Below, in pieces: positions 8,735 through 43,555 of a stretch of 64,000 nucleotides of DNA; the first letter of the stretch is position 1; each line of letters begins with the position of its first letter. The stretch is from Natronorubrum thiooxidans (GTDB lineage: Archaea; Halobacteriota; Halobacteria; Halobacteriales; Natrialbaceae), in contig NZ_FTNR01000005.1 in NCBI RefSeq assembly GCF_900156475.1, positions 186,001 to 250,000 of the forward strand, given 5' to 3'. The notes beneath the pieces were generated by a model. The model ran no database searches and was not told the DNA's origin. It saw nothing but the letters and a program-made list of their open reading frames with translations. The position numbers and the translations under genes are program-made.

Positions 8735-9207
8735 TTCGGACTCGCACGCAGGAATCTCGGGGAGGAGATGGCCCAGGGCGGGCAACCGACTCTATTGTAC
8801 TCCTGAATCGAGTCCAGTTGATGCAAACGAAACAGAGGAAAAGCACGGTATTAAATTCTTCCCTTCAACCAGTGACTACCACTCAAATGAGACCGGTTTG
8901 GCCAGCTAACAGTCAGAACAAGCCCGCTGGTGCGAACGGGCGACTGTTTGGACAACTCCTTCGAAACACGGCCGTTTCGAGTCCACTCTGGAGTGGTGAG
9001 GTCACTCTTGAGTGTGAGCGGTTAGAACGCGGACCGAACGTGGAGGGTGCTTTCGAGCATATAGGTGGAGGCCGCTTCCGGAGATCGTGGGTGAAGGCCA
9101 CTTTTGGAGACAGCGAGCTCGGAGAAGGAGGGAGTTGATAATGTGAACTAATGACAATAATAGGATAAATGGTGTCAAACCACATGAAATGGTGGAATCG
9201 ACCCTAA

Positions 9208-9236
9208 CCCCCCACCCCTTTGTTTCGGGTGGAACC
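9208..9236 (-). repeat. Origin recognition box with C/G-string (left, minus orientation)
   Basis: The + strand shows a C6-A-C4 run followed by tttgtttcgggtggaacc. Its complement begins GGTTCCACCCGAAACAAAGG and ends in a long G-string. The opposite-facing element is at 9530-9557, and the two bracket the AT-rich segment. Confidence 0.85.
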
Positions 9237-9246
9237 TGACGAGAGT

Positions 9247-9265
9247 GGGGGGTGGGGGGAGGGGG
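9247..9265 (+). repeat. G-rich tract next to the left ORB
   Basis: Runs of six, six and five guanines separated by single T and A bases. It lies ten bases beyond the left ORB and is inverted relative to that element's own G-string. The spacing would allow a G-quadruplex or an extra initiator contact. Confidence 0.7.
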
Positions 9266-9310
9266 TCTCTGTAACGAGAAGTTTTATATTGGTAGGTCAG
9301 AAACACGGTC

Positions 9311-9408
9311 CGTAGCACTAGCAAAGCACATATTTTACTAGAAGAGGTTGTTTTAGTTACTAGGAAACACTAGAATGACCCAGCTCAGCGCCTCGAGTTA
9401 CTAGAACC
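9311..9408. repeat. Cluster of five ACTAG sites in the AT-rich part of the origin
   Basis: Five ACTAG pentamers occur within about 90 bases (near 9316, 9338, 9359, 9369 and 9401), most as ttACTAGaa or ttACTAGga. The central pair is separated by five bases. CTAG is otherwise scarce in this DNA. The cluster lies between the two facing ORBs, where unwinding is expected. Confidence 0.6.
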
Positions 9409-9510
9409 ACTGCAAGTCACGAATTCACCGTTCTAACTCCCTTCTCGATACTGTTCTCGTCGGTTTCACCTTCGATCCACGACTTGCATCGGCGGATACT
9501 ACCGATCAGG

Positions 9511-9557
9511 CCCCCACCCCTTCGACAGTCTCCAGTTGAAACGAAGGGGTGGGGGTG
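9511..9557 (+). repeat. Right ORB within a perfect 14-bp inverted repeat
   Basis: cccccaccccttcg at 9511-9524 is repeated exactly as its complement cgaaggggtggggg at 9542-9555, with a 17-base spacer. The right-hand arm is the G-string of an ORB reading ctccagttgaaacgaagggg from 9530. The left arm lacks the ccagttgaaa half, so the palindrome may hold one full element and one bare G-string. Confidence 0.85.
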
Positions 9558-9686
9558 TCTCGAGACGGCGATATCTACCTCGTGAGTACCACACGTGAGT
9601 GTGACCGACACTCGTGTGTCTTAATATCATTAATATCGTCGATGTCGACAGCTCACAACGATTGAACTGTCTACACGTCTGACGTA

Positions 9687-9696
9687 GGCTTAAGTG
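9687..9696 (+). promoter_or_regulatory. TATA-like promoter of oapA operon
   Basis: ggcttaagtg is the best TATA-like element before oapA. Transcription would start near 9718, giving a leader of roughly 30 bases before the ATG at 9751. Confidence 0.45.
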
Positions 9697-9750
9697 AGTT
9701 CAGTTTGTAGTACGCGCAGATGCACCCCGCGGTGCTGGAGGGCCCCACAG

Positions 9751-37965: not shown

Positions 37966-38045
37966 ACGCGAATGTGTACAGGCACGACGAAAATGTGTGT
38001 CGATTTGTGCATCATCGTCGCTATTCTGCCGCTGGCCGAGGCGAG

Positions 38046-38055
38046 GATTTATATC
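38046..38055 (+). promoter_or_regulatory. TATA element of the HNH endonuclease gene
   Basis: gatttatatc lies about 27 bases before a GTG at 38078. It decides this GTG as the start over longer upstream frames. Confidence 0.65.
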
Positions 38056-38077
38056 CGATGAGGCGGCCAACGGCCGT

Positions 38078-38635
38078 GTGACGTCCGAACGGGAGTGTCT
38101 CGAGTCGTTGCTCGAGGCTGCAAAGCGACTCGGCGAGTCGCCGACGAAAGCACAGTACGAGGAGATGGGGCTGACGCCATCGGCGTCGACCATCTTACGG
38201 GTTGTCGGTGGCTGGAACGTTGCGAAAACGAAAGCCGGCTTCGAAACGGAACCGTCGACGGGAACACGCACTGCGTCGAAGCCTGCGAATATTGAACTGC
38301 CGGACGGAATGGAATGGGAGAACCTCTCTCAGGATCAGCGATGGCACTACAAACACGCCGACTGGAATACTGAGCGGTCGCTCCAACGCCAGAACGCACA
38401 TCGGGCGTGGGCAAATGAACTTCAGCGAACGCGTGGTGGCTGCACCCGATGTGCAGAACAGGACCCTGCATGTCTCGACTTTCACCATGTGAATGAAGAC
38501 GAGAAAGAGATGGCTGTCGGAAAGATGATTTCCTTTGGGTACTCCAGAGATCGAATCAAGGCTGAGATTGAGAAGTGCATCGTTCTCTGTGCGAACTGCC
38601 ATCGAAAAGAACACTACAACCCACCGCTCGACTGA
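38078..38635 (+). CDS. HNH endonuclease with homing-associated repeat
   Basis: A 185-residue protein starting (GTG) [20 protein letters not shown]. Residues 5-55 ([34 protein letters not shown]) form a DNA-binding repeat of the type found with haloarchaeal homing endonucleases. The C-terminal half is a Zn-binding HNH domain: [20 protein letters not shown] carries the metal Cys and the HH, and [19 protein letters not shown] holds the final Cys pair and catalytic residues. It sits between purO and a tRNA gene, a typical site for small selfish nucleases. The AT content is somewhat higher than its surroundings, suggesting transfer. Confidence 0.85.
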
Positions 38636-40456: not shown

Positions 40457-41500
40457 TCAGGGCGGGAGGACGACCGCACGGCCCTCGATTTCGTTGTGCT
40501 CGAGGCGTTCGGCGACCGTGTTGATCTCACCGAGGTCGTGGCGTTCGGTGTGGAGTTCGACGTCGCCGCGGTCGACGAGCGCGACGAGTTCCTGGAGTTC
40601 GGCGTACTTGCCGACCAGCGTGCCACAGAAGGCGAACTCGCCGTTGACCAGCGCCTGGCTGGGTTCGTGGATGTGGCCGCCGTAACCGACGATATGGTGG
40701 TCGCCGCCGGCGGCGACGATCTCCGGTGCCAGCGCAGTCGTCTCGTCTCTGCCGACGAAGTCGACGACCTGCTGTGCGCCCTCGTCGTCGGTTAGATCCG
40801 CGACGACGTCGGCGAGGTCCTCCTCGGCGGAGTTGACGGTGTGGCGCGCGCCGAGGTCGTCGGCCAGTTCGAGCGCCTCGTCTTTGATGTCGGCGGCAAC
40901 GATGGTTGCGGCGCTCATCGCGTCGAGACACTGCAGGCCGATATGGCCGAGGCCGCCGACGCCGATGACGACACAGGTGTCGCCCGGGTTCAGTTCGCGG
41001 ACGGCCTTTTTTGTGGCGTGGTAGGCCGTGATTCCCGCATCGGCGTGGGGAGCGATCTCAGTTGGGTCGACACCGTCGGGTAGCGGGATGACCGCTCGCT
41101 CGTTAGTCCGGAGGTACTCGGCGAAGCCGCCGTCGGTGGTGAGGCCGTTGAACGCGCTGTTCTCGCAGTACATATCCTCGCCGAGCCGGCAGGGCCGACA
41201 GATGCCACAGGTCTGGACGGGATGACAGATGACCGGATCACCCTCCTCGACCAGTGTCACTTCGTCGCCCGTTTCGGCGACGATACCGGCGTTTTCGTGT
41301 CCCAGCGTCATCGGTAGATCCTGTGGCGCGTACTCTTGCCACATGCCTTCGATAATGTGGTTGTCCGTCTGACACCACCCCGCGCCTTTGACCTCGATCA
41401 GTACGCCATCGGAGCGTTCGATTTCAGGGCGATCGACGTCATCGATCGAGAGTGCGTCGCTCATCTCGTCTGTGTACTCGTGGAGACGGGCTGCTTGCAT
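40457..41500 (-). CDS. Zinc-dependent medium-chain alcohol dehydrogenase
   Basis: A 347-residue zinc dehydrogenase. Catalytic zinc ligands are in GWCQTDNHIIEG and TLGHENAG. Structural zinc is held by the four Cys of CHPVQTCGICRPCRLGEDMYC-type spacing (CGICRPC, then C). The NAD(P) fold is VVIGVGGLGHIGLQCLDAMS. Its final stretch TERHDLGEINTVAERLEHNE is typical. It is divergent from an amidohydrolase and a MIP18-family gene; in Actinobacteria such an ADH, amidohydrolase and MIP18 protein accompany propane/acetone monooxygenases. No monooxygenase is present here. Confidence 0.92.
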   Translation of the reverse strand: MQAARLHEYTDEMSDALSIDDVDRPEIERSDGVLIEVKGAGWCQTDNHIIEGMWQEYAPQDLPMTLGHENAGIVAETGDEVTLVEEGDPVICHPVQTCGICRPCRLGEDMYCENSAFNGLTTDGGFAEYLRTNERAVIPLPDGVDPTEIAPHADAGITAYHATKKAVRELNPGDTCVVIGVGGLGHIGLQCLDAMSAATIVAADIKDEALELADDLGARHTVNSAEEDLADVVADLTDDEGAQQVVDFVGRDETTALAPEIVAAGGDHHIVGYGGHIHEPSQALVNGEFAFCGTLVGKYAELQELVALVDRGDVELHTERHDLGEINTVAERLEHNEIEGRAVVLPP

Positions 41501-41648
41501 GGTACCAAGTTACAGTCCAACACACGCAAAGAAAACGTTCCCCCAAAGCGTCGCTCACTGTGAATCTATGGGTGTTGAGACAGTAGGCTCGCCACTACAT
41601 ACATACTCCATATAGAAATTATAACTCACAAATTCCTGAAAAAGACTG
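41501..41648. promoter_or_regulatory. Divergent promoter region with TATA element at 41611-41624
   Basis: 148 bases between the dehydrogenase and amidohydrolase genes. tatagaaattataa at 41611-41624 is about 28 bases before the amidohydrolase ATG at 41649, which supports that start. A T-rich stretch (complement of caaagaaaacg, 41526-41536) may serve the dehydrogenase. Shared control is likely. Confidence 0.6.
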
Positions 41649-42743
41649 ATGGCTTATGGTAACAATAATCATGATACAATGTACCGCAATAACGGTGAAG
41701 AGATCTTCGTCATCGACGGCCACGTACACCTGTGGGACGCCACGGAGGACAACATCAAACACGACGGTGGGGAGGAGTTCATCCAGTGTTTCTACGACTA
41801 CCACACGACGTTCACGCCCGAGGACCGTCAGTGGGACATCTCCGAGTATCGGAAATACGGCGCTGATCGGATGGTCGAAGACTTATTCGCCAACGCGGCC
41901 ACCGATATGGCGATCTTCCAGCCGACGTATCTGACCGATTTCTACACGGAGGGGTTCAATACTACCGAACAGAACGCCGAACTCGCGACCGAACACCCCG
42001 AGCGGTTCATCCTCAACGGGACGTTCGACCCGCGCGACGGCGAGGACGGCCTCGAGTACCTCGAGAAACTCCACGACGAGTACGAGATTCCCGGGGTCAA
42101 ACTCTACACCGCCGAGTGGCGTGGCGACTCGAAAGGGTGGCGACTCGACGACGAGGAAGCCTTCGAGTTCTTAGAGAAGTGCCAAGAGCTCGGTATCGAG
42201 AACATCCACGCTCATAAGGGGCCGACGATCCGCCCCCTCAACCGCGACGCGTTCGACGTGAAAGACGTCGACGACGCGGCCTCGTCGTTCCCGGAACTCA
42301 ACTTCGTCGTCGAACACGTCGGCCTCCCGCGACTCGACGACTTCTGCTGGATCGCCGCCCAGGAGAACAACGTCTACGGCGGCCTGGCCGTCGCCGCGCC
42401 GTTCGCCCAGAACCGGCCGGGCAAGTTCTCCGAGATCATGTCCGAACTCCTCTGGTGGCTCGGCGAGGATCGCGTCCTCTTCGGCTCGGATTACGCGCTG
42501 TGGAACCCCGACTGGCTCGTCGGGGAGGTCCTCGAGGCCGAACTCACGCAAGAACACCGCGCGGAGTACGGCGTCGAGTGGGATCTCGAGACCAAACGGA
42601 AGGTGATGGGTGAGAACGCGGCCGAGTTATACGACATCGATATCGAGGCGAAACGCCAGGCGTTCCAGGACGACGAGATCAGCCAGCAGTTCGGGCTCGA
42701 GGACCACTACGCGAGCGAAGAGCCCGCCGCGGCGGACGACTGA
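41649..42743 (+). CDS. Amidohydrolase-family protein (accessory to an ADH/MIP18 group)
   Basis: A 364-residue TIM-barrel amidohydrolase. VIDGHVHLWDATEDN carries the HxH site (about residues 22-28), GVKLYTAEWRGDSKGW holds the carboxylate/Lys position, HAHKGPTIRPLN and VVEHVGLPRLDDFCW provide further His, and DRVLFGSDYALWNPDW the late Asp. This subtype is large and Trp-rich and is found with alcohol dehydrogenases and MIP18-like proteins in propane-monooxygenase loci. The Met at 41649 is chosen because of the TATA element at 41611-41624. The stop overlaps the next gene's start (one base). Confidence 0.88.
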   Translation: MAYGNNNHDTMYRNNGEEIFVIDGHVHLWDATEDNIKHDGGEEFIQCFYDYHTTFTPEDRQWDISEYRKYGADRMVEDLFANAATDMAIFQPTYLTDFYTEGFNTTEQNAELATEHPERFILNGTFDPRDGEDGLEYLEKLHDEYEIPGVKLYTAEWRGDSKGWRLDDEEAFEFLEKCQELGIENIHAHKGPTIRPLNRDAFDVKDVDDAASSFPELNFVVEHVGLPRLDDFCWIAAQENNVYGGLAVAAPFAQNRPGKFSEIMSELLWWLGEDRVLFGSDYALWNPDWLVGEVLEAELTQEHRAEYGVEWDLETKRKVMGENAAELYDIDIEAKRQAFQDDEISQQFGLEDHYASEEPAAADD

Positions 42744-43555
42744 TGACCGCCCAGACGTCCGACGGCCCGACTCGAGCGGCCGTCCGCGATCGACTGGACC
42801 GCGTGACCGATCCGGAACTCGACCGGTCGATCGTCGACCTCGAGTACATCGATTCGATCGAGATCGACGGCGGCCGCGTCAGCGTCACGTTCACGCTGCC
42901 GACGGCGTGGTGTTCGCCGGCGTTTGCCTGGATGATGGCGGTCGACGCCCGCGACGAGATCGAGTCACTGCCAGCGGTCGAGACGGCTCGGATCACGCTC
43001 ACAGAGCATATGCACGAGACGGAGATCAACCGCGGCGTCAACGAACGGCTGTCCTTTGCCGAGGCGTTTCCCGACGCTGACGGCGATGTCGAGGCCGTCC
43101 GTGGGGAACTCGACGAGAAGGCACGGGTCGCACGGCAGTACGACGCGGTCGAGACACTGCTCGAGGCCGGCCTCCACGCCGAGGCGATCGTCGACCTCCG
43201 ACTTCGAGACCTCGAGGTGGCCGATCCCGGGGCCAACACGGCTCGAGCGGACAGTACCGAGACAGCGACCGACGACACGATCGCCATCTACGCCCACGAC
43301 CGCTCGTTTGCCGTTTCAGTTCCCGCGGCACCGCTCGAGCGCTATCTCGAGAAAGCCCGCGAGACGACCCTCGTGACGGATCCCGACGAGCGACTGTTCC
43401 GAACACCCGAGGGAGAGCCGATCCCGCTCGAGTCGTTCGACCTCGTCCGCCGGCGCGGGCGACTCGCACAGGTCAACATGTCGAGTCAGGGTGGGATCTG
43501 TGACGGGCTTCGGGAGGCCAGAGAGGGGCGGCTCGAGGAGACTGCCGACGACTGA
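42743..43555 (+). CDS. MIP18/DUF59-family Fe-S assembly-type protein with extension
   Basis: A 270-residue protein. The N-terminal 110 residues are a MIP18 (DUF59, PaaD/SufT-like) domain: RVTDPELDRSIVDLEYIDSI, RVSVTFTLPTAWCSPAFAWM with the conserved Cys, and VETARITLTEHMHETEINRG. The rest is an extra domain (ADADGDVEAVRGELDEKARVA-type helix; IAIYAHDRSFAVSVPAAPLE; LAQVNMSSQGGICDGL). MIP18 proteins mature metal centres. The ATG overlaps the amidohydrolase stop (tgATGa), so the two are coupled, which hints that it matures that enzyme or a linked oxygenase. Confidence 0.85.
   Translation: MTAQTSDGPTRAAVRDRLDRVTDPELDRSIVDLEYIDSIEIDGGRVSVTFTLPTAWCSPAFAWMMAVDARDEIESLPAVETARITLTEHMHETEINRGVNERLSFAEAFPDADGDVEAVRGELDEKARVARQYDAVETLLEAGLHAEAIVDLRLRDLEVADPGANTARADSTETATDDTIAIYAHDRSFAVSVPAAPLERYLEKARETTLVTDPDERLFRTPEGEPIPLESFDLVRRRGRLAQVNMSSQGGICDGLREAREGRLEETADD

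Follow-up and report, generated by a model that had tools for sequence, protein, structure and literature searches.

What do the accessory genes of a propane or acetone monooxygenase do in an archaeon that has no such enzyme? The question is raised by three genes in a 64,000-nucleotide stretch of Natronorubrum thiooxidans DNA (the window), encoding an alcohol dehydrogenase (ADH), an amidohydrolase-family protein (AMH) and a MIP18-domain protein (MIP). Maps of propane and acetone monooxygenase gene clusters have long included AMH and MIP, yet full-text searches, covering main texts, found no function given for either in the papers that draw both beside a di-iron monooxygenase (SDIMO), and the literature likewise yielded no member of the AMH family with a reported reaction. 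Based on the analysis presented here, we put at roughly one in two the probability that the trio represents an inducible catabolic module independent of an oxygenase, with AMH and a dedicated MIP operating beside a secondary-alcohol dehydrogenase and with a C3 compound as the probable substrate.

Organisation of the locus

Open reading frame and Pfam analysis confirmed the arrangement described in the initial annotation, with ADH divergent from AMH and AMH coupled to MIP (Table 1). The AMH stop and MIP start codons overlap in the sequence TGATG at about 42741-42745, and 148 bp separate the divergent ADH and AMH genes. Since the majority of homologues have their start at AMH residue 11, that of AMH may lie 30 bases further in, at the ATG at 41679. 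Alignment with 30 same-family relatives revealed conserved patches in the shared intergenic region, for example GATAACGTTCCCC near ADH and CTGAAAAAG before AMH, while inspection of this region by eye detected no clean palindrome. In MIP, the FeS_assembly_P match (PF01883, E 2.4e-16) spans residues 11-82 of 270.

Table 1. Features of the ADH-AMH-MIP locus (positions are those of the window)
Feature	Position	Strand	Basis
ADH, Zn-dependent medium-chain alcohol dehydrogenase, predicted secondary-alcohol type, 347 aa	40457..41500	-	Pfam ADH_N + ADH_zinc_N
Intergenic region between the divergent ADH and AMH	41501..41648	.	Alignment, 30 same-family relatives
AMH, predicted Amidohydro_2 metal enzyme, 364 aa	41649..42743	+	Pfam Amidohydro_2 (PF04909), E 1.9e-47
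MIP, MIP18/DUF59 protein with helical C-terminal extension, 270 aa	42743..43555	+	Pfam FeS_assembly_P

The neighbours of the trio in the window, as identified by Pfam and open reading frame analysis, are an OYE-family protein, a KEOPS Cgi121 protein and a helicase-like protein. The OYE-family gene (PF00724, 39005-40333, on the ADH strand) adjoins ADH in about 25 loci, apparently in the window's family only, and a gene with a homing-endonuclease-associated repeat (PF18780) is located at 37997-38635. No GroEL-sized open reading frame is present beside the trio, and no GroEL-like chaperonin recurs in the haloarchaeal neighbourhoods of the trio.

The ADH sequence contains the structural-zinc motif CxxCxxCx7C, and its closest solved chains in a PDB sequence search are the alcohol dehydrogenase 1h2b and ADH-A of Rhodococcus ruber, relatives which suggest an enzyme of the secondary-alcohol type. 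A branch with a support of 91 separates the archaeal and bacterial trio ADHs from eight ADH paralogues of the N. thiooxidans genome, and the window ADH is 44-47% identical to the bacterial trio ADHs as compared to 28-33% for the paralogues.

Conservation of the trio in haloarchaea

In a set of 98 haloarchaeal loci (97 further loci and that of the window), AMH is present in all 98, MIP in 96 and ADH in 92, with ADH being divergent in 88 across a gap of usually 86-330 bp. An AMH orthologue (65-92% identity) occurs in 49 of the 195 genomes of the order and MIP is confined to exactly the same 49, so that AMH is the partner which MIP follows. The flanking genes change between families, the three neighbours named above being those of the window's family while an E1 dehydrogenase, small zinc-finger-like proteins or amidohydrolases are found in others; it is therefore the trio, and not the region, that is conserved. 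These data support the trio well as a conserved unit, grouped far beyond chance, and the single function which the initial annotation read from the shared promoter region gains strength from them, as the genes stay together in almost all relatives rather than being found apart. The notion that the three are independent genes which became neighbours by chance could draw on the occasional detachment of ADH, but the linkage across many families with differing flanks, the 49/49 co-occurrence of AMH and MIP and the recurrence of the linkage in several bacterial phyla make it the least credible of the explanations considered here.

Variation within the unit mainly concerns ADH. It is missing or moved in six of the 98 haloarchaeal loci, some of them located at the end of a contig, and next to some of the bacterial AMH-MIP pairs no ADH was detected, for which reason it may not be an obligatory member. 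In three other haloarchaeal genomes AMH, MIP and ADH form one operon, divergent from a gene for an IclR-like regulator; in two haloarchaea (loci L200 and L202) such an IclR-AMH-MIP-ADH operon is neighboured by genes for a beta-keto acid cleavage enzyme, an SDR and a periplasmic-type binding protein. One genome (G156) harbours a broken second AMH copy which MIP still adjoins.

Bacterial relatives and the search for an oxygenase

The trio has clear bacterial relatives. Matches on plasmids show 50-58% identity to AMH and align with MIP over nearly its full length, and in Caballeronia, Aminobacter, Bradyrhizobium, Paracoccus and Gemmobacter the genes for an SDIMO alpha subunit, reductase, beta subunit and MmoB are followed by AMH, MIP and GroEL, with ADH nearby, which matches the published layout of propane monooxygenase loci (PMC4428276, PMC6849523, PMC9213486). 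In the group V SDIMO operons, prmABCD of Gordonia TY-5 and Rhodococcus and mimABCD of Mycolicibacterium, the downstream genes are given as an amidohydrolase, a 'metal-sulfur cluster biosynthetic enzyme', an ADH and GroEL, and include orthologues of all three trio members (PMC4428276, PMC6849523). The adjacency of AMH and MIP, the MIP extension and an ADH of the above-mentioned 44-47% identity are shared with these operons; in contrast, the window trio lacks hydroxylase, reductase, coupling protein and GroEL, its ADH is divergent rather than co-directional, and its host is archaeal. The likeness to monooxygenase-linked accessory genes proposed in the initial annotation is thus borne out by sequence for all three genes. 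The 150-residue extension of MIP, which had been considered unusual, is normal for the family, as it also occurs in both SDIMO-linked and oxygenase-free bacterial homologues.

Among 80 bacterial AMH loci sampled from genome contigs, an SDIMO alpha gene is present within the flanks of 54 and absent from those of 26, two or three of the latter being short contigs. The phyla in which oxygenase-free trios were found are Chloroflexota, Thermomicrobiota, Bacillota, Poribacteria and Actinomycetota. Among the oxygenase-free loci, most of which carry MIP and ADH, are those of Thermomicrobium, Thermoflexus, Thermogemmatispora, Chloroflexus, Ktedonobacterales, Poribacteria, Bacillota and one actinobacterium. 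Those of Thermomicrobium, Thermoflexus, Thermogemmatispora, Chloroflexus, Poribacteria and Bacillota resemble the window trio in combining the same three families with no SDIMO nearby, and differ from it in gene order (MIP-AMH-ADH, AMH-MIP-ADH or ADH-MIP-AMH). In Thermomicrobium the order is IclR-MIP-AMH-ADH, and the Thermogemmatispora trio also adjoins an IclR gene. The trio is therefore a stand-alone, oxygenase-free unit in a quarter of the haloarchaea examined and in several other lineages. The initial annotation was correct in that the oxygenase is missing, both from this locus and from the genome (see below), but its description of the monooxygenase as the usual companion of these genes overstates the case, given how widespread oxygenase-free trios are.

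A partner oxygenase encoded elsewhere in the N. thiooxidans genome, one of two alternatives previously offered, could be envisaged because the di-iron hydroxylase family PF02332 is present in eight of 22 bacterial genomes with oxygenase-free loci, that is, at a distance from the trio; it is absent from the other 14, for which genome completeness is not given. However, a profile search detected no PF02332 protein in the 100% complete N. thiooxidans assembly. As the initial control genomes were silent in this search, positive controls were added, and all five SDIMO-linked genomes matched. Only three of 392 haloarchaea possess PF02332, none of which has MIP, rendering this alternative very improbable. 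The divergent SDIMO-like hydroxylase subunits of the three haloarchaea (L168 in G128, L169 in G379 and L170 in G243) exhibit about 25% identity to group V alpha subunits and are unlinked to the trio. With the oxygenase absent and the trio conserved, the other alternative, a different pathway, is favoured.

Other candidate partners fared no better. The PaaA/PaaC oxygenase is absent from the N. thiooxidans genome, and Paa genes show no association with the trio elsewhere (32/49 trio genomes versus 84/146 others), due to which a role for MIP as a Paa oxygenase factor was rejected. Acetone carboxylase (gamma subunit) does not track the trio either (3/49 trio genomes versus 14/146 others), a result which weighs against the C3 module favoured here.

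The haloarchaeal trio may also be regarded as the remnant of a bacterial SDIMO operon from which the oxygenase was lost, the rest being retained for part of its function, for example the oxidation of alcohols. Besides the clear kinship to SDIMO-linked genes, this explanation can call on the AMH tree, in which SDIMO linkage switches several times, so that losses may happen, and in which an Acidiphilium locus without an SDIMO is sister to a locus bearing one. Yet the haloarchaeal AMHs form one clade (support 100), placed with weak support among oxygenase-free lineages, and a single clade uniting them with the core alphaproteobacterial SDIMO group is rejected (p-AU 1e-6), a result which further undercuts the idea of a usual monooxygenase. 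Together with the lack of an oxygenase beside the trio in any relative examined and the full conservation of key AMH and MIP residues described below, this makes a remnant improbable. A single SDIMO origin, with the SDIMO-linked AMHs as one clade, was likewise rejected (p-AU 4e-9). As the root of the AMH tree was not inferred, gain and loss of SDIMO linkage are indistinguishable in it; that the module predates its link to the oxygenase is a reading of this tree and not a result.

AMH and MIP as a putative enzyme and its proposed partner

AMH belongs to Amidohydro_2 (PF04909) by a profile score above the cut-off, a barrel fold and a metal-ligand-like His/Asp set consisting of H25, H27, H189, H223 and D281, to which K151 is added. 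H25, K151, H189, H223 and D281 are invariant (each 184/184), H27 is kept in 182 of 184 sequences, and the metal-site residues are retained in oxygenase-free members. Both exceptions constitute a Bacillota pair, Peribacillus and Jeotgalibacillus (L073 and L156), which have Ala at position 27 and a DJ-1/PfpI gene in the place usually occupied by ADH. The AlphaFold model of AMH is a barrel (pLDDT 90, pTM 0.90), whose nearest folds in Foldseek (E about 1e-9) are BB4693, the 2,3- and 2,6-dihydroxybenzoate decarboxylases, LigJ hydratase and ACMSD. AMH shares the barrel and the HxH, His, His, Asp pattern with the ACMSD/dihydroxybenzoate decarboxylase/LigJ hydratase branch, although identity is 13-17% and the TM-score about 0.5-0.6, and it differs from this branch in a Trp-rich conserved set of its own. 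Neither a PDB sequence search nor Foldseek identified a close solved structure; the sole PDB sequence matches, designed PPR proteins aligning with residues 131-183, were taken as chance or compositional. Because its metal site is complete, AMH itself probably has enzymatic activity.

MIP resembles SufT, PaaD and MIP18 in its DUF59 domain, DPELD motif and conserved Cys, and differs from them in the helical extension with a second invariant Cys. Two cysteines of MIP are invariant (182/182 each): Cys57 belongs to the DUF59 domain and Cys253 to the extension. The AlphaFold model (pLDDT 89.5, pTM 0.84) comprises the DUF59 domain plus helices, and PDB matches cover the DUF59 part only, the helical extension being without a solved relative. 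MIP scores below the NCBIfam equivalog cut-offs for PaaD (33.7 versus 180 bits) and SufT (19.8 versus 202.6), and also below those of the SUF-associated models. As the distribution of MIP follows that of AMH rather than that of any oxygenase, its likely task lies with AMH, either in metal loading or in a complex; the 49/49 co-occurrence and the invariant cysteines fit the earlier proposal that MIP matures the AMH metal site.

An alternative role for both proteins is that of metalloenzyme maturation factors, comparable to the GroEL-like MimG for Mim, with a haloarchaeal client elsewhere and ADH as a downstream enzyme. MIP does belong to the FeS_assembly_P family and weakly matches haloarchaeal PaaD, and in many SDIMO operons AMH and MIP lie between the hydroxylase genes and GroEL. 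Against this, N. thiooxidans has neither an SDIMO nor PaaA/PaaC, Paa genes are not associated with the trio, and the AMH metal site is complete. In Actinomycetospora grown on 2-hydroxyisobutyrate, moreover, the ADH and amidohydrolase of the Mim cluster, by which acetone is hydroxylated to acetol, account for 6.1% and 3.2% of the proteome, respectively; both are as abundant as the oxygenase subunits, and the cluster is also induced on acetone (PMC7176365). Such abundance is enzyme-like. The group VI SDIMO Smo, whose described cluster contains ADH, AldDH and GroEL and neither AMH nor MIP, works in a new host, which indicates that the latter two are not a general SDIMO need (PMC11057499). A maturation role for both is therefore considered unlikely. 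That AMH and MIP occur together and intact in organisms without such an oxygenase means that they are not merely its helpers, and at least two of the three genes probably have metabolic work of their own.

In the catabolic module favoured here, ADH would reversibly convert a small secondary alcohol or hydroxyketone to the corresponding carbonyl compound, while AMH, as a metal-dependent ACMSD-like barrel, would catalyse a second step on the same or a neighbouring compound. MIP would serve AMH through the Cys57/Cys253 pair, and the substrate would induce expression via the divergent promoter or, in other lineages, via the IclR regulator. The likeliest substrates would be C3 compounds of the 2-propanol, acetone, acetol and methylglyoxal family, as suggested by the SDIMO-linked Mim cluster with its acetone-to-acetol step and its induction on acetone. 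In proteobacteria and actinobacteria the module would have joined group V SDIMOs, more than once or with repeated losses, the oxygenase then supplying its C3 compounds from propane or acetone. We infer the action of MIP on AMH, the AMH reaction, inducibility in N. thiooxidans and the C3 substrate from the comparisons above. A more specific and tentative proposal, on the unlikely side, is that AMH and MIP constitute a new two-component metalloenzyme, in which a paired-Cys DUF59 protein assists an amidohydrolase-fold enzyme or forms one of its subunits, the enzyme handling acetone, acetol or methylglyoxal in the absence of an oxygenase. In this proposal the module would have existed before di-iron monooxygenases adopted it. 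If AMH and MIP were one metalloenzyme, this would explain a step of ketone or alkane breakdown and reveal a new role for DUF59 proteins; genetically tractable haloarchaea offer clean systems in which to address their function, free of confusion with an oxygenase.

Recurrent neighbours of the oxygenase-free bacterial loci are mostly locus-specific (transport, methionine synthesis, amidases). Neighbours pointing to methylglyoxal or acetol are confined to a few loci, those of the others being unrelated: the glyoxalase gene gloA in Rhizobium N324, DJ-1/PfpI in Peribacillus and Jeotgalibacillus, and, at locus L053, which is without an oxygenase, an iron-type ADH between ADH and AMH. A sigma-54 regulator at the oxygenase-free Peribacillus locus (L073:7449-9464) and a sensor fragment at that of Chloroflexus (L133, about 9160-9700) resemble regulators of SDIMO-linked operons, a similarity which hints at a shared inducer; along with gloA, DJ-1 and the iron-type ADH, they provide weak hints of a C3 substrate.
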